From Golubevia sp. BC0850 (taxonomy: Eukaryota; Basidiomycota; Exobasidiomycetes; Golubeviales; Golubeviaceae): a stretch of 64,000 bases of DNA. Where the stretch lies: assembly GCA_012976225.1 (NCBI GenBank), contig JAAVVG010000014.1, forward strand, positions 496,001 through 560,000. Reading direction: 5' to 3'. Both the position numbers and the translations under genes were made by a program. Of this stretch, positions 23,151 through 43,411 are shown in pieces. The notes beneath the pieces were generated by a model. It was not told where the DNA came from, ran no database searches, and worked only from the letters and a program-made list of their open reading frames with translations. The stretch's first letter is position 1. Each line of letters opens with the position of its first letter.

Positions 23151-24583
23151 TCAATTGAAATACTTTTCGTTCATCTCATCGACCATCTTTCTGACTGCCA
23201 CAACGCGAGCATGCGCATCCTTCAAGTCAGAGTGAAGACAAATCGAGAATGGAAGGGGACGCTCGTCAGCATCTCTGAAGTTCATCTTGACGTCTGGACC
23301 ATTTTGTGTGAAGACTGCGAGGAATGATTGTAAGAAGGAAGTAAGACGACGAAGCAAAGATACGGGATGGACAGAGAGGCAGGTTTTTGAACTCACGAAG
23401 ATCTTCTTCGACAACCTTACGAACTCTCTCTGCAGCCTCTTCCGGCGAGATGAACTTCGACTTGGATGGAGGGATCAGATCTCCATTGGCGGTATATCTG
23501 AAAGGAGACAAGAAGAAAATGTCAGCAAGAAAGGGCGATTCTGCCTGTTCCCCCTTCCCAGTCTTTTATTTCTTCTTCTTTTTTTTCTTTCTTGAGTACG
23601 ATTCTTAGTCTTTGCAACCAACTCAATGTCAACGAATAATTCAGGCACGAAAGGCACTCCAAGCTCTTTGCAAATTTCTTCATGAAGGGTCCCAGGCAAG
23701 CCATACATCGGTAGGTTGAAGGCCTTGATAGCTTTGATCGCCGCTACGCATACTTCCCGAGAGGATAAAAGATAGAAGTACAAAGCTGCAAAATGAAAAA
23801 GATCACATCAGTAATTCCATGACTGTGGCAAAGAGATGAAGTCTAAGTACTCACCTCCATGAGGCTGGGTTTGTGGAAGAAGCAGAGGAAGGTAGGAGTG
23901 AGATGAAGATAGAACTTGGTGTGGAGTTGGGAATAAGTTCTTCGTCACTCACCTTGACGTGGCTCTAAATAAAAGAAGAAACCCCGAGATGTAGAGAGAA
24001 AAGGGAAAAGGAAGGGACAGGAAGAAAGTCATTTCAAACGAACATGCTCCAACTTGAAAGCGTCTCGTCGCTGCCTTGCTGTAAACTGACCAGAGGGATC
24101 CCTTCTACTTCACAGAATCCTTTGACTGCCCCGATCTGATAGACAATGATATCAAAGACCTCTTGAGGAGACAGCTCCATTCTTCGTCTACCAAATCCTT
24201 CCAGATCTCTGAAACCTGGGTGAGCTCCCACCGGTACGTTTCGATCCTGGCCTCCTGGCTTGATCGAGAGCTTTACTGTTCGACCTAAAGTCGTAGGGTC
24301 GCTAGCGTGAAACCCAGCAGCGATGTTCGCAGCATCAATGTAAGGAAAAAGGACCTCGTCTGGAGTTCCCAATCTCCAACAGCCATAGCTTTCCCCCATG
24401 TCGATGTTGATCTTCACGAGGAGATCCAGAAACGATTCAAAACGAAGGTCAGAGGCCCAATGGGGTCGAGGAGAGGATAGACTTCAGCTGAAAGAATGAG
24501 TGGGAGCACCGAGCACAACTCTCAATCCTCCAACTCACCTCTACCTTCTGCAGGAGCTTGCTCTTGATACCTTGTGAAGACAT
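23151..24583 (-). CDS. lamB: LamB/YcsF family protein (PxpA-like)
   Basis: In bacteria PxpA works with PxpB and PxpC as an ATP-dependent 5-oxoprolinase; the family is named after lamB of the Aspergillus nidulans lactam locus. Seven exons (24583-24539, 24411-24091, 23964-23953, 23864-23855, 23785-23623, 23497-23397, 23314-23151) give 271 residues, the usual length. Motifs in order are INIDMGESYG, ANIAAGFHASDP, VGAHPGFRDLEGFGRR, YQIGAVKGF, SHVKPHGALYFY and ICLHSDLKDAHARVV. The HVKPHGA motif is split over two microexons of 12 and 10 nt. It is divergently paired with the carboxylase starting at 25957, which carries the PxpC and PxpB domains, so the two proteins probably act together. Substrate (5-oxoproline, 2-pyrrolidinone or another lactam) is not settled by sequence. 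Confidence 0.92.
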
Positions 24584-24704
24584 AATTCGATTCTGTTGAT
24601 TTCAAGATTCCCTGATGGTGTCGAAGAGAAGGAAGAAATTGAAGATTTTCTTCTTATCTCGGTGGGCGCGTGCTGCCGTGCTCGCGGATCCGTAGTCTGG
24701 CTTC

Positions 24705-24736
24705 CAGCCTCTCCCTCGCTTCACCGGGAGAGGCTG
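24705..24736. promoter_or_regulatory. Strong hairpin upstream of the LamB/YcsF gene
   Basis: A perfect 11-bp inverted repeat (CAGCCTCTCCC and GGGAGAGGCTG) encloses a 10-base loop. It lies 122-153 bases upstream of the start codon, so it could fold in the 5' leader or act as a DNA operator. Confidence 0.6.
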
Positions 24737-25596
24737 GGTTCAAAGTCGCGTTTGGCGGCAGTGGTGATCGCGTTTTCTCGCCCAAACCTCCCTTTTTCTC
24801 CTTCTTTCCCCTGTTTTGCCTCCTCAATGAATTATGGGAAGGCACTCTCTGTATTCCCTAAATCGTGGGCTTAAAAATATTTTAGATCAATTTTAATTCA
24901 GACTTCGAAGCTCAAATTTGAAGCTCAGGCGTAAGAAGTGGGGTGGTTTAGTTCTGGATGAGCTTGACCAGCTCTGACGTTCTTCAAAACCATCCCCTAG
25001 ATCCCATCATTTTTGATCCTTCTCATTAGAGTATTTCTCAAATTCCAGAGGTGATATATTAGACGATCAAGAGCCCGATCAGGATCCCGAAAGGGGAAGA
25101 TAGACCATGAATTTGGCCACTCCAATATCTCTTTTTGTATACACCAAACTCAGTTGACTACTTTTTAATTGGAATCAAATTTTTGGAAAGCAAGTTTTAC
25201 AACTTTTGACCTGGATCGATTTAGCAGAATCAGAGTGGAAATATCATAAAGATGGGAGGCTAACGATGAAGAGCTCTGGCAGCGAAGCAGTCCAAGATCA
25301 ACAAACTTTCACCGTGAGAAAATTGATCTAGGCTCACTTCAAGTCTTTGAACCTCTTTGAAATAGATCAGAAAGCATCTGACAGAAGTCTTGGCTCATAA
25401 CAGAAGATTGAGAAAAGTGAATGAGGAAAAGGAGCTGAATTTGACTCAAAAGCAGCCCCAACCCTCCAATTCAACCACTTTTCTCGTCCTTTGAAACTGG
25501 ACCAAGTCGTCTCAACTCTTTTTTAAGTTGATCTTCAGCACAGTATCTTTCAAATGATGTGCATTTGGAAGGGCTTTGCAGGTGGAACTTTATCGT

Positions 25597-25693
25597 GGAG
25601 GCGTAACTTTTGAGGACGTCAGAATGTGGCCAAAAAACAAGGCCACCACTAACAAAATCTGAGAGGGGCCATTTTTGACAGTCTTACGCCTCC
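25597..25693. promoter_or_regulatory. Inverted AGGCGTAA pair flanking a GTGGCC palindrome
   Basis: GGAGGCGTAA at 25597-25606 and its exact complement at 25684-25693 form a 10-bp inverted repeat. Between them, GTGGCC and GGCCAC (25626-25646) form a second one with a 9-base A-rich spacer. The block lies about 260-360 bases upstream of the carboxylase ATG, a normal place for activator sites. Confidence 0.5.
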
Positions 25694-25956
25694 TGCGTTT
25701 CAACACTTTGACTGGGCGCCGTGATACTTGAAGAGCTTAATTTTGAGGGGACAAATAAAAAGAATCGTTTGACAGAATGGAGATCGTCAAGTACAGATAT
25801 GACTTCCATATATGGTGAAAATGCGCGAGAAGATCAAAATTTGGCGGGGCAGAGGCGCGTCGAGGTGGGCACCAGTAAGAGATTTCGCGGATCCGACACT
25901 TCCTTGAAGAGATCCAATCTCGTTCTTCTTCTTCTCCTTTCCACCACTCATTCAAA

Positions 25957-28900
25957 ATGGAAACTGGATTCACCGGTTCACAACCAAGATTCGAGCCAAA
26001 GAAGCTCAAGAAGATTCTCGTGGCCAATAGAGGAGAGATTGCCTGCCGCATCGTGAGTGTCAAAGAGCTGGACGATGGGTAGGACGAGCAGAGCTGCAGA
26101 GATAGGAAGACGTGATGAACTCAAATCAACCAACCATCTCAATCAAATTTAGTTTCGGTTGCAAATCTTACGCCTTTCTCTCAATCCAGATGCTAATCTC
26201 TTCTGCTTCTCCTCTGCCTCCCAGATTCGCACTTGCAAGGCTCTAGGAATAAGCACCGTAGCTGTCTATACTGCTTCAGATCAAGGTCCTCACGTCTCGG
26301 CTGCTGACTTTGCGATTGAATTGCCAGGAAAAGAGGTAGATGGCGGAGGATATCTCAACCAGAAAAGCATCATTGATGCTGCAACCTCCACTGCATGTCA
26401 AGCAATCATTCCTGGCTACGGATTCCTTTCAGAAAACGCCAGCTTTTGCAAGAAGATAGAAGAAGTAGAAGGTCTGGTCTTCTGCGGACCAACCTCTTCC
26501 ACTATTCATGACTTTGGTCTGAAGCATAGAGCCATCGCATTGGCTAAAGAAGCTGGAGTTCCGTGCGTTCCGGGGACAGGTCTGCTCGAGGATTTGGAGG
26601 ACGCTCTGGTCCAGGCTAGGAAAATCGGTTACCCAGTGATGCTCAAATCTAGCTCTGGAGGAGGTGGAATGGGGCTCTCAGTCTGCAGAAACGAGTCAGA
26701 GCTCTCTGAAGCTTTCCAGACCGTTACGAGCAGATCTCAGGCTTTGTTTGGAGACTCCTCTGTCTTTCTAGAGAAGTTCATCCAGAGTGGAAGACACATA
26801 GAAGTTCAGATCTTTGGTAATGGAGAGGGGGAGATTATTACTTTCGGTGAAAGAGAATGTTCAATTCAAAGAAGGAACCAGAAAATCATAGAAGAAGCGT
26901 GAGTATGAGTAGGAGCTGGACGAAATCGGATGTCTAGACTTGGACATTTCTCGCAGAATGAAAGGTCATAAAGGTTCTCTATTCTATTCTTTCAAACCTC
27001 CAGACCTTCTCCTTTCATTGCCGCAAACCCATCTCTGAGACAGTCTCTGCTAGATTGCGGAAAAGCCTTAGGAAAGCTCGCCAACTACCGATCCGCTGGT
27101 AAGTGAAAGGCGGAGGTTAGGCTACTAAAGTGCTGTTCACTGACAGTTTCTTCCATCACTCTGACTTTCAGGTACAGTGGAGTTCATCTTAGACGATTCG
27201 ACCTCTGAATTTTACTTCTTGGAGGTGAACACACGTCTTCAAGTTGAGCATCCTGTCTCGGAAATTACCCACGATGTCGATCTAGTCGCCTTGATGCTTC
27301 ATCAGGCCGACTATCAGCTCGCTAGAAAAGGAGGAGGCATACCATCTAGCGACCTTCTCTCGTTGGAGCAAGAAGCTCCAGCTGGCCATGCTATCGAATG
27401 CAGGCTCTACGCCGAGAATCCGCTTCGCTCGTTTGCCCCTTCTCCAGGTCTGCTTCAGCAAGTCGAATGGTCGAAAGGTAAGGAATTGGGGAGGTACGAT
27501 TTTGAGATTGAGCCCCAACACTGTCTTCTTCTTTTGAGCCTTTCCAATTGCTCCCTCTTCTCCTCTTCCTCTTCTTCTATCTCCACCGACTTCTACCTCT
27601 TTTCCTCCCAAATATTAATCAGGAGAAGGAGTTCGAATCGACACCTGGATCGCAACTGGCACTGTCGTTTCTCCGTCTTACGATCCGCTTCTAGCCAAAG
27701 TGATCACTCACTCCAGTACTAGATCAGAGAGTGCGAAGTTGATGGCTAGGACTCTGGACGATTCCAAAGTACTGGGTTCGACTACGAATCTGGCTTTCCT
27801 CTCAGAGATCGTCAAATCCTCTCCATTCCTAGCAGGTCAAACTCTTACCTCCTTCCTCTACAGTGGAATCTTCTCGTCATCAACAGAAGCAGTCGAGGTG
27901 ATTCAAGGCGGTCTCAATACGACGATCCAAGACTTGGGTCGTCCAACAATCGGATTCGGAGTTCCAATTGGCGGAGCAGCAGATGAGCTATCCTTCAAGC
28001 TTGCAAATCTTCTCGTTGGAAACGAAATGAATAAGGAGGTTTTGGAAATCACTCTGTCAGGCTGTGAACTCAAGTTTCATTGCTCAAGCGTCGTAGCTCT
28101 GACTGGAGCCGCTCTACTGATCACTCTTGACGGAAAAGAAGTCGACAGCTACTCACGAATTCCCGTCTCTGCAGGCTCAATTCTCAAGATAGGTTCTCTC
28201 TCCCCTGACCAGAGTGGTTTCAGAGCTTATTTAGCCATCAAGAACGGATTTCCAAAAGTTCCGCTTTATCTAGGCTCGAAGGCTACTTGTTCAGCTCTCG
28301 GAAGCGGCGGATATCAAGGTCGAAAGCTGCTACCGGGAGACACTCTCGAGATCGAGCCTTCCACTGCCACCTTCTACTCTCTACCATCAAAAGCAAGGCT
28401 CGACAGGCTACTCGGAGGGGATGGGGCTACTGAACTGCTGTGTATGCTTGGTCCTTTCGTCGACGATGAGTTCCTGACAGAAAAGGGTAGGCAGCAACTC
28501 TTCGATACAGAGTGGACCGTTACGAATTCATCTTCTCGAACTGGAATCCGTTTGGAGGGAACATCTCAAATCGATTGGTCTCGTTCCGACGGAGGCGAGG
28601 GAGGCTCACATCCCTCTAACATGCTTGAATTCGGCTACAGTCCAAAGGGGATCAACATGGTGAGTGCTAAGCCAGAACGGGTCTGGCGGAGAAGAGAAGA
28701 GTCCACTGTTCAGAGAGGAGTTGATTCTGCTGATGAAAAGACACTGAGTCAAACTATCTACTTCTCTCGTCCCTTCCAGAATGGAAACACACCTGTAATC
28801 CTTCTCAACGATGGACCAGACCTTGGGGGCCTCTCTATCACTCACACACTTCTTTCGTCTGAGTGGAAAGTTGGACAGATCAGACCAGGCTCGAAGATTA

Positions 28901-30533
28901 GATTTAGACCTGTCTCAGCCGAGACAGCAGCTCAAATTCTCCAGGAACAGGACGACTACCTCAAAGGAATCGGATCTTTAGTAGATGGGAGCTCCAAAGA
29001 GGTACCCTCGCCACCAAATAAGACTCCTTTAGACAAGGACTGGCAAAAACTTCCTTCTTGCCTGCTTTATTCTTCCGGTGCAGGGTCTGGTAAGGTGGAG
29101 ATCAGAGCAGCTGGAGACGCTTCTTTGATGATCGAGTATGGAGAAAGAACGGCTGACGTACTTGTTCGATGTAGAATCGAACTGCTGGTCAGAGAGCTCA
29201 AGAAGCTCTCTCATCCTGGATTTCAACTTCTCTGCCCTAATTTGAGAAGCTTGACGATCAGATATAGGCCTAGAATCTTACCTCAAAAGGAACTGGTCAA
29301 GATTTTAATTGAAATTGATGGAAGACTTCCATCTGTTCAAGATGTCAAGATTCGTGAGTGCTGCTTAGACTTCTTCTTATCTCAGCTCGAGTCTCACTCT
29401 CATTTCATTTGTTTTTCTGCCACAGCGACTCGCGAGTTCACTCTACCTCTCACGTTTGACGATCCCTTGATCCAGTCGGCTGTTGACAAATATTCAGCTA
29501 CAGTGCGCGACAAAGCCATCTACCTACCTTCCAACACGCAGTACGTCGCCAAAGCTAATGGAATTACGGAATCAGAGGTTCGAGAATACGCTCTCGGTCC
29601 TTTCCTAGTCGTCGCCTGTGGCTTCTTCGCCGGTACGCCAATTCTTCTACCCCTCGATCCCAGAAAGAGACTCGTCTGCCAGAAATACAATCCTACTCGT
29701 CCCTCTGGAACGCCTTTCGGAGCAGTGGGATTAGGAGGATCTATGGCTGCTATTTACGGATGTGATGGAGGAGGAGGATATCAGTTGTGTTATGGAAGGA
29801 CATTGCCAGGTTGGAGAGGTGAGCTGAACTGATGAAGGCAGATCTGTGACTCTTCAACTACTGACGACTCCCTTCTCTCCCCTTCTAGCCTTCGCCGATT
29901 TGCCTCATTTCGACAACCCATGGCTCTTCAAGGATTTTGATACCCTCAAATTCAAAGTCGTCTCCCAAGCCGAGTACGAACATAACCTAGCTGACTTCCA
30001 ATCCGGATCGTATCAACTTGAGGTCAAGACGTACGAATTCAATGTGAAAGATCAAGCAGAATTTCTGGCTTCGGTCGCTGGAGAGACTAAAGCTTTCAGA
30101 GAAAAGCAGCTCAAAGCTACTCGAGAATGTCAATTGGAAGAAGAGAAGCTGTTCAAGGAGTGGAGAGAGGAAGTCGAGCGCAAGTCGAAGACCTTGCCAG
30201 AGCAGAAGAACGACGATTGGAAAGCTGGTGAGTGGCTGAGAAGAGTGTGAAGAAGGTAATCGACGTCTGACCTCTTTCTTCTTTCCAGATCCCAACTGTG
30301 TCTCCGTCGTCGCTCCTTTGAGCGGGAGCATCTGGAAACACCTCTTCAAGGTGGGAGATGTAATCAAAGCATATGAAAAGTGCGCTATTCTCGAAGCTAT
30401 GAAGATGGAAGTCGATGTCCTCGCTCCTTCGGAGGGTGGAGAAGAGTTCAGAATCAAAGCCATCCTGGCGGAGCCCGGAAGCTCAGTCCAAGGGGGAGAT
30501 GTGATTCTAGCCTGTGTGCCAATTGAGAAGTAA
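25957..30533 (+). CDS. Urea-carboxylase-like biotin enzyme with PxpC/PxpB (KipA/KipI) domains
   Basis: Exons 25957-26052, 26225-26898, 27004-27098, 27172-27477, 27623-29353, 29426-29818, 29889-30227 and 30289-30533 give 1292 residues. Order: biotin carboxylase (about 15-475: LVANRGEIACRI, GGGGMGLSV, FGERECSIQRRNQK, EVNTRLQVEHPVSE), AHS2/KipA/PxpC domain (about 480-800: VIQGGLNTTIQDLGRPT), AHS1/KipI/PxpB domain (about 880-1140: IRAAGDASLMIEYGE, RTLPGW), then a biotinyl domain with EAMKMEV, biotin Lys near residue 1250. Urea carboxylase has the same order and carboxylates urea to allophanate. The amidase half of yeast urea amidolyase is absent. The divergent LamB/YcsF neighbour argues for a lactam or 5-oxoproline substrate, as in the A. 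nidulans lam locus. The product is probably cytosolic. Confidence 0.92.
26168..26175 (-). promoter_or_regulatory. Fourth AGGCGTAA motif, in intron 1 of the carboxylase
   Basis: The plus strand reads TTACGCCT inside the first intron. It matches the three upstream copies and so joins them as a candidate site for a locus-specific regulator. Confidence 0.3.
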
Positions 30534-41215: not shown

Positions 41216-43411
41216 ATGGTCTTAGACATAGAAGGGTAAGACTTTCAATAGACTCATCCTTCAAACTCTGTCTTGTCTTGCTGACCTTAAACATCGATGA
41301 TCGATTCTTCCTTCTCTCCTGCTAGATTTAGAAAAGCAGGTTACGCAGCCGTGGATTCCATCTGCGAATACTATCAGAACCTAGAAAAGAGACCAGTCAA
41401 TGCTCAAGTAGAACCTGGTTTCCTTTCCAAATCGATTCCAGGTGAATCATAAGACAAAATCTATTTTGCGGCTCATCGTCTTCGCTCACGACCTCACGTA
41501 GTTCTTCTTCCCTTCTGAACAGACCATGCTCCAGAGAAAGGTGAAGAATGGGATACGATAGCAAAAGACTATCAGGATGTTATCCTACCTGGGATTACTC
41601 ATTGGTGAGGCTTTGGCTGAAAGCCTCTTCCTTCGCTCTCTTCTTGGAAGCAGAGGTTGCTGACTTTTCTACCCTCTGCCACTCTCATATCAAGGCAACA
41701 CCCAAATTTCTACGCCTATTATCCTTGCAACGCAACTTTTGAAGGTGCTTTAGCAGATTTACATTCCGCCATGATCTCAAACCCAGCTTTGTAAGAACCT
41801 TCTCTCGCATCTCTTCTATCCTTTTTCTTTACTCCATGATCTTCATCACTGACCTCTCTACGTTTTCATCTTGACAGCAATTGGTCCTGCAGTCCAAGTG
41901 TCACAGAACTAGAAATCATCCAATTAGATTGGTTAGCCAAAGCTTTAGGTTTATCAAAAGATTTCGAATCTACTTCGTCTTCCAGGAATGGAGGTGGAAT
42001 CATATTAGGATCAGCAAGTGAGGTTGCTTTAACAGTGACAATAGCTGCTAGGGAGAAGGTATTGGCATATCTGAATGAAAGAGAACAACAAAACTTAACA
42101 TCGAAAGTCATACCTCCAAGCGAAACCTCTGAATCAAGTTTAGATCCTGACAATGTTTTACTAGAAACTGATTCAAAACCTCAAATTGAAGCTACTATGT
42201 CAGAAGAAGACAAAGCCTCAAAATGGAGAGCAGAGAAAACTGGAAAATTGATCATGTATGGTACGACCCAGACTCATTCTATTGGAACTAAGGCAGCTTT
42301 GATCTTAGGATTGAAATTTAGAGCATTGGAGGTCAAAGCTAAAGATGGTTATGCTTTAAGAGGTGAAACTTTGAAGAAAGCTTTGGAAGAAGATGAGAAG
42401 ATTGGAAATGTTCCTTTCTTCTTGATTGGAACTCTGGGAACAACTTCTAGTGGTGCTGTGGATGATATTACTGAGATTGCTTCAATTGGTGAGCTTTATC
42501 CGATTGCTTTTGAAAATCTGAATCTCTTCCAGAGAGGGCACGAAAGATTCTAACCAGCCAGTCGTAACTTGTCTGCCTCTTTTCATCCCCCAGTCAAACA
42601 TCACCCAACTCTCTGGCTTCATATAGATGCAGCCTACGCAGGTGTTGCTTTATCAATTCCGGAACTCAGAGCTTCTTCACATTTAGATGCCATCAATGAA
42701 GTTGCAGATTCCTTTTCTACCAACCTTCATAAATGGGGTTTAGTTCAATTCGATTGCTCCCCACTACATGTTAGAGATAGAGGAACTCTTTCAAGAGCTT
42801 TGACTATCACACCTGAATATCTCAGAACTAGACATGGAGATGCTGGTTCGGTTTTGGATTTGAGAAACCTTCAGATTTCACTTGGAAGAAGGTTTAGAAG
42901 TTTGAAAATGTGGTTTGTTTTGAGAAGTTATGGGTTGGAAGGCTTTAGGAATCATTTGAAGAAGAGGTGAGCTTTAAAAAACTCTCGAGAAGGGGTTCGA
43001 AGAACCCAATGTAGAATCCTACGTATTGTACTAGTACAGTACATCTTACTGAATCCTCGACCCGTCTCTCTTTCCAGCATATCCCTTTCCAACCATTTCG
43101 AGAAACTCCTAAGAACTTCTTCTGAGATGTTCGAGATCGTAGCTCCACCTCGATGGGCTCTCGTGGTATTCAGGCTGAATCCAGGAACTGGGAAATTGGG
43201 TAAATTCAAGGATCTGGAAGAATTGAATCAAAGGTTTTGGTCAAATCTTCAATTGAGATCCGAAGAAATCGCTTTGACTCAAACTGTTTTGCCAGAGATT
43301 GGTTTTTGCATTCGATTAGTTGTTGGAAGTCCACAAACGGAAGCTAGACATATTGAAGGAGCTTGGGAAGTTATCGTAGAAAGGGGGAGATTTACTTTGG
43401 CAGAAGAGTAA
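41216..43411 (+). CDS. Aromatic-L-amino-acid decarboxylase family (group II PLP enzyme)
   Basis: The family decarboxylates tryptophan, tyrosine or DOPA to the amine. Exons 41216-41235, 41326-41441, 41523-41604, 41695-41790, 41878-42488, 42594-42966 and 43078-43411 give 543 residues. Family features are AGYAAVDSICEYYQNLEKRPV, LPGITHWQHPNFYAYYPC, NWSCSPSVTELEIIQLDWLAKALG, the HIDAAYAG aspartate that holds the PLP ring nitrogen, the PLP lysine in STNLHKWGLVQFDCS, and LQISLGRRFRSLKMWFVLRSYG. An insert of about 50 polar residues (near 245-295 of the protein) lies after VLAYLNEREQ. The first exon has 20 coding nt. Substrate choice is not readable. No obvious secondary-metabolite partners flank it. 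Confidence 0.93.

Follow-up and report, generated by a model that had tools for sequence, protein, structure and literature searches.

The window analysed here, 64,000 nucleotides of Golubevia sp. BC0850 (assembly GCA_012976225.1, contig JAAVVG010000014.1, positions 496,001 to 560,000), carries two divergent genes that are rather likely to be a fungal LamA/LamB system of the Aspergillus nidulans lam type, predicted to open a lactam ring. In A. nidulans, the lam locus consists of the divergent genes lamA and lamB, and LamA is composed of biotin carboxylase, AHS2, AHS1, and biotinyl domains. A single urea carboxylase (UC) protein is given for A. nidulans (PMC3073912), in agreement with this make-up. 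Lactam catabolism genes lamA and lamB are controlled by AmdR (PMC8016842), and the lam type fits because the genes present in the window match this pair; probable membership in the lam family is based on family make-up and adjacency. Both loci combine LamB with a second gene. The lam locus itself is already known; the carboxylation step is proposed in this analysis.

The gene pair and its surroundings

The two genes and their parts are placed as follows in the window.

23151..24583, minus strand: LamB/YcsF gene, 7 exons, 271 aa
24583-24539, 24411-24091, 23964-23953, 23864-23855, 23785-23623, 23497-23397, 23314-23151, minus strand: LamB exons
24584..25956, no strand: divergent intergenic region, 1373 bp, ATG to ATG
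25957..30533, plus strand: biotin-dependent carboxylase (LamA-like), 9 exons, 1252 aa
25957-26052, 26225-26898, 27004-27098, 27172-27477, 27623-28659, 28780-29353, 29426-29818, 29889-30227, 30289-30533, plus strand: carboxylase exons
28660..28779, plus strand: in-frame intron, 120 nt, GTGAGT..CAG; removal restores alignment to urea carboxylases
27623..29353, plus strand: exons 5 and 6, with the AHS2 domain (CT_A_B) and the counterpart of K. lactis Asn1330
29426..29818, plus strand: exon 7, AHS1 (CT_C_D) core; Lys1605 equivalent kept, Asp1584 equivalent absent
30289..30533, plus strand: last exon, biotinyl domain, EAMKME

Both genes are present, intact, and divergent, and the distance between their ATGs agrees with the 1.37 kb of the initial annotation. 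The claimed order of biotin carboxylase, AHS2, AHS1, and biotinyl domains is borne out by domain matches (Biotin_carb_N, CPSase_L_D2, Biotin_carb_C, CT_A_B, CT_C_D, and Biotin_lipoyl). The length of 1292 aa first given for the carboxylase has been corrected to a predicted 1252 aa; the intron at 28660-28779 had been read through. This segment is taken as an intron because its excision drops 40 residues that have no counterpart in aligned urea carboxylases, so that the apparent 40-residue insert behind the Asn1330 motif was discarded as a protein feature. The carboxylase has the EAMKME motif and all three biotin carboxylase motifs searched for. LamB has six introns with GT..AG ends, and two of its exons are just 12 and 10 nt long. 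Its PF03746 match scores 242.2 bits and spans positions 1-238 of the 239 in the profile, and the protein retains 27 of the 28 columns that are at least 95% conserved in a reference of 103 bacterial LamBs. Both proteins align with solved homologues across almost their full length, and chance is therefore excluded for both genes.

Several of the 20 other window ORFs scanned match eukaryotic housekeeping families, including BCKDH kinase, sirohaem synthesis, PI4 kinase, TPX2, and isocitrate/isopropylmalate dehydrogenase. The introns and the neighbouring genes show that this is eukaryotic DNA. Scans of the window for tRNA and Rfam families gave no match, and neither did tblastn of bacterial allophanate hydrolase and carboxyguanidine deiminase (UAAP) proteins against it.

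That the two genes are chance neighbours without joint function is highly improbable. The intergenic region at 24584-25956 has three GATA-type and four CCAAT-type matches, and none of the promoter motifs tried there (generic motifs, with no AmdR model) exceeds chance, which would suit such a reading. However, lamA and lamB are under common control in A. nidulans (PMC8016842), and the window LamB comes from, or stands beside, a clade whose bacterial members accompany biotin-dependent carboxyltransferases. The two families also adjoin in several Trichoderma species; a UC gene and a LamB gene share one segment in Trichoderma and are adjacent in other species (PMC8675399). That segment resembles the window in having the same two families close by but differs in its additional genes; the paper does not settle its function or commit to a urea cluster (PMC8675399).

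Relation to urea and guanidine carboxylases

The best solved homologue of the carboxylase is the urea carboxylase/amidolyase of K. lactis (3va7, 5i8i), which has the same domain order, Lys1605, Asn1330, and biotin site. The window protein differs from it by the missing Asp1584, the missing amidase, the LamB neighbour, and its outside position in the carboxyltransferase (CT) tree. Identity to 13 bacterial urea carboxylases is 38.6-43.1%. Against TIGR02712 the carboxylase scores 1190.2 bits and misses the equivalog cut-off of 1303.85 bits, compared with 1963 and 1808 for two bacterial urea carboxylases. When the window CT (1292-aa model) was compared with 398 proteobacterial genomes, fused proteins of at least 1171 aa, 35-44% identical, were at the top among the matches listed, with neighbours examined for part of these loci.

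Residue numbers are those of K. lactis, read off by eye from the printed 5i8i alignment. The window keeps Lys1605 (Lys1014 in its own numbering), which is likely to be the general base (PMC5770610). Residue 1330 is Asp in guanidine carboxylases and Asn in urea carboxylases (PMC12186494, PMC11410670). The window has Asn, the urea type; 22 bacterial urea/guanidine carboxylases, counted before loci L312-L351 were added, have Asn in 6 cases and Asp in 16. Asp1584 is demanded of guanidine carboxylases, which are then split from urea carboxylases by residue 1330 (PMC11410670). This Asp is deleted in the window but is present in K. lactis and in 41 of 41 bacterial urea/guanidine carboxylases, a set without L020 (AHS1 in two frames), L021 (cut by a contig end), L024, and L009 (wrongly picked ORF without an AHS domain, 17% identity). 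It is also missing in all 24 unfused Lys-type proteins compared and in the intermediate L321. Among 79 Arg-type PxpB proteins the site is a gap in 77, D in one, and E in one, so its absence is either an older state or a reversal. A guanidine carboxylase was ruled out by the Asn, not Asp, at 1330 and the gap at 1584. The window protein is probably not a plain urea carboxylase either, judging from its TIGR02712 score, the missing Asp1584, and its position in the CT tree.

In the tree comparison suggested by the initial annotation, a carboxylase nested inside verified urea carboxylases would have refuted its reading; for the CT this result did not appear. A CT tree of 30 rows, built with the 1252-aa protein, separates the window from a sister group made up of every urea/guanidine carboxylase sampled and the fungal amidolyase, with 100/99 on both branches of the split. 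A tree constrained to an inside position, next to the amidolyase and four bacterial proteins, was rejected (p = 0.0007), and so were trees that joined the window to L321 or to the unfused Lys-type class. An earlier quick CT tree of 74 rows has the same shape, but two inside positions were not rejected with that set (p = 0.154 and 0.207). Its rows include 24 of the 41 urea/guanidine carboxylases, 22 of the 25 Lys-type proteins (without L324, L327, and L329), and 26 of the 79 Arg-type proteins. In a tree of the biotin carboxylase domain (37 rows), on the other hand, the window is nested close to the amidolyase and part of the urea carboxylases (88/91; 95 for the grouping near urea carboxylases in the quick version), and an outside position was not rejected (p = 0.30). 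The position of this domain counts against the lam reading. The rows of the smaller CT, biotin carboxylase, and LamB trees were picked from larger quick sets; the quick trees and quick CT tests used the 1292-aa model with sparse columns filtered. For the quick CT, biotin carboxylase, and 30-row CT tests, the clades were chosen after a tree had been seen. Both window proteins lie on long branches.

Strope et al. (2011) reported that A. nidulans, C. neoformans, and other fungi have a urea carboxylase without the amidase, which forms a clade apart from urea amidolyase (PMC3073912). This fungal clade groups at 100% with proteins of green algae, some of which have the gene close to an amidase gene, and also with broadly distributed bacterial urea carboxylases (PMC3073912); the clustering with the bacterial proteins speaks against an outside position for the window. 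Neither lam nor lactam turned up when the text of Strope et al. was searched for these words (PMC3073912). The naming by Strope et al. accords with the window locus encoding a plain urea carboxylase, with its allophanate hydrolase elsewhere in the genome and LamB adjacent for other reasons, as do the identical fused domain order, the kept Lys1605 and Asn1330, the K. lactis homologue, and the nesting of the biotin carboxylase domain. Nevertheless, this explanation is improbable given the missing Asp1584, the missed TIGR02712 cut-off, a CT outside all sampled urea carboxylases, and the absence of an allophanate hydrolase match within the window. Furthermore, in the fungi with this protein the amidase is absent, unlinked, or part of a separate urea amidolyase (PMC3073912, Table 2).

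LamB and bacterial partner genes

Bacterial PxpABC shares LamB/PxpA, AHS1, and AHS2 domains with the window. The window differs in its fused biotin carboxylase and carrier (PxpB and PxpC are free proteins without biotin parts), in Lys for Arg in AHS1, and in the replacement of Arg183 in LamB. Because the carboxylase is closer to urea carboxylase than to PxpB and PxpC, its earlier description as PxpC/PxpB-fused holds only at the level of domain families.

Five PxpA models match the window LamB, each with a score under its cut-off, the nearest being NF003814 (216.4 vs 226). At position 183 the window LamB has Ile; Leu occurs in the five bacterial LamBs of the inner group of the LamB tree, and Arg in the other 98 of 103. 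Loss of this near-invariant Arg could point to a substrate that carries no carboxylate, for example 2-pyrrolidinone in place of 5-oxoproline. Membership in the LamB/PxpA family and the requirement of pxpABC for 5-oxoproline use in Corynebacterium glutamicum (PMC13274462) would fit a 5-oxoprolinase, with two-step chemistry alike and 5-oxoproline as its substrate. Such an enzyme is unlikely in view of the PxpA cut-offs, of Ile183, which could suit a carboxylate-free substrate, and of Lys1605. PxpB has Arg, not Lys, at residue 1605 in 64 of 65 LamB loci in which no biotin carboxylase was seen, a count that predates the addition of L312-L351. The initial proposal of a two-gene lactam or 5-oxoproline system, as opposed to a plain urea carboxylase, is supported as to the lam type; the Ile in LamB makes 5-oxoproline a slightly less likely substrate than some other lactam.

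Partner genes were compared at 89 bacterial LamB loci, comprising every place listed by the main LamB searches and five further ones, with about 6 kb per side where the contig allowed. AHS1 and AHS2 genes are present at 84 of these, and a biotin carboxylase and carrier at 19 of the 84. At each of the 44 fused urea/guanidine carboxylase loci examined, the DNA covered contains allophanate hydrolase genes, UAAP genes, or both. Twenty were found by Lys-type AHS1 searches (15 proteobacterial, 5 actinobacterial); the 24 of the first set (4 plasmid records out of 60 listed and 20 out of 80 loci) are biased to good matches because they were picked from longer lists. LamB was found near none of the 44, and a fused biotin carboxylase-AHS ORF near LamB at none of the 89. 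A bacterial fused carboxylase beside LamB was rejected as a direct donor on these two counts.

Two Lys-type AHS1 queries recovered 13 loci in 349 proteobacterial genomes and 12 in 246 actinobacterial genomes; 7 of the 25, including both query sources, had first been found via LamB, and the AHS fusions L330 and L331, which lack a biotin carboxylase, were left out of the counts. LamB is nearby in 24 (L312, the exception, is cut by a contig end). A biotin carboxylase is present in 21; L249 and L327 reach contig ends, and L318 and L319 have none within reach. This gene content defines a class of unfused Lys-type operons, paired with LamB and for the most part linked to biotin, that exists beside Arg-type PxpBC. 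It adjoins the urea carboxylase branch in the CT trees. Its operons resemble the window in LamB clade, Lys1605, and the lack of Asp1584, as well as in the biotin carboxylase, but differ in that the genes are separate, that Gln replaces Asn at 1330 (7 checked), and that their CT is not the nearest kin of the window CT. Across LamB-linked AHS2 proteins (again before L312-L351 were added), residue 1330 is Gln in 83 of 84, and the Asn kept in the window argues against the lam reading. Paired unfused homologues in bacteria and archaea have been described without functional data (PMC3199775).

In a LamB tree of 56 rows, the window LamB is placed (97/92) with those of Lys-type operons, most of which are linked to a biotin carboxylase, and there it belongs to an inner group with 99/96. 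A position outside the LamBs of these operons was not rejected (p = 0.0997), which also weighs against the lam reading; the larger LamB tree omits L324, L327, L328, and matches under 150 bits. The carboxylase shares its fused form with urea carboxylases, and its grouping with the unfused Lys-type class was rejected, so that it and LamB differ in their nearest kin, a further point against the lam reading.

Some Lys-type loci have further neighbours. At L250, the single actinobacterial Lys-type operon scanned on its LamB side, a gene for a xanthine dehydrogenase-like molybdenum enzyme adjoins the carrier and LamB genes, and ABC importer genes adjoin L197, L198, L313, and L315. These genes would accord with a substrate that is a cyclic amide other than a simple lactam, for example one from the breakdown of purines or other N-heterocycles. 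For the window such a substrate is unlikely, as these neighbouring genes are bacterial and none alike was found among the 20 window ORFs scanned.

Predicted ring opening and a proposed wider class

For the LamA/LamB reading, the biotin carboxylase domain of LamA would spend ATP to load CO2 onto LamA's own biotin, and the AHS2-AHS1 carboxyltransferase would pass the CO2 on to a cyclic amide at its ring nitrogen. LamB would hydrolyse the activated amide and so open the ring. The resulting N-carboxy amino acid would then shed CO2; 2-pyrrolidinone would yield GABA. Such a scheme would parallel that of urea carboxylase and allophanate hydrolase, with LamB replacing the hydrolase. The analysis itself demonstrates the intact domains, the catalytic Lys, the missing urea/guanidine Asp, the tree positions, and the bacterial partner genes; we infer carboxylation as the activating step, a lactam as the substrate, and which lactam it is. 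Nothing on the function of LamA or LamB was found in PMC8683493, PMC5005798, and PMC7928374, and a relation of ycsF to A. nidulans lamB is all that was found in PMC3412718. No LamA mechanism was found in a literature search that left subscription papers mostly outside its scope and is weak evidence of absence.

A broader proposal is offered tentatively, with somewhat less than even confidence: fungal LamA/LamB and the unfused bacterial LamB operons may form one class of lactamases that act through biotin-dependent carboxylation of a ring amide. Its mark would be a LamB clade paired with Lys-type CTs without the urea/guanidine Asp, its LamBs with Ile or Leu at 183 would act on carboxylate-free lactams, and LamB-paired, amidase-free fungal "urea carboxylases" would be misnamed members. 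The name urea carboxylase is in published use for amidase-free fungal proteins of this type (PMC3073912, PMC8675399) and would be wrong for at least some of them if they are LamA. In that case, the activation step of lam reduces to a simple assay with biotin, bicarbonate, ATP, a lactam, and two proteins, for which the bacterial Lys-type operons offer the easier enzymes.

As a separate observation on AHS proteins, the solved PDB entry 9yx5 is listed for AHS1 and AHS2 as well as for the biotinylated AccA3 subunit, a co-occurrence that agrees with a biotin link for these proteins.

Bacterial operons pairing LamB with a Lys-type carboxyltransferase

In bacterial operons at loci L193, L197, L198, L246, L249-L251 and L312-L329, LamB is accompanied by a Lys-type AHS1/AHS2 pair (named for residue 1605 of AHS1, K. 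lactis urea carboxylase numbering) with the motif PKYxxPR, and most of these operons also encode a biotin carboxylase and carrier. The Lys-type LamB operons apparently represent a distinct biotin-dependent relative of the 5-oxoprolinase PxpABC. One further gene adjoins the LamB and carrier genes of L250:

L250:7058-9433, xanthine dehydrogenase-like molybdenum enzyme gene

L246, L251, L323 and L325 each have an ORF comparable in length to this gene in the vicinity of LamB.

The L321 carboxyltransferase is intermediate, being of the Lys1605 type without Asp1584, with Ser at the 1330 position (judged by eye) and a PGR insertion resembling urea carboxylase; LamB lies approximately 5.6 kb away.

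Biotin carboxylase and carrier in Arg-type loci, and PDB entry 9yx5

A biotin carboxylase and carrier are also present in ten Arg-type PxpB/PxpC loci (L173-L177, L179, L235, L236, L241 and L242), several of which have these parts in a single ORF. PDB entry 9yx5 was found in the rows for AHS1, AHS2 and AccA3 chains, which suggests that a structure has been determined in which AHS proteins are bound to a subunit of a biotin carboxylase.

Additional features of the window

23953-23964 (12 nt), micro-exon of LamB
23855-23864 (10 nt), micro-exon of LamB
41840-42550, segment of a PLP-dependent decarboxylase (PF00282), ~11 kb from the LamB and divergent carboxylase genes

The product of the decarboxylase would be GABA if the enzyme is a glutamate decarboxylase.
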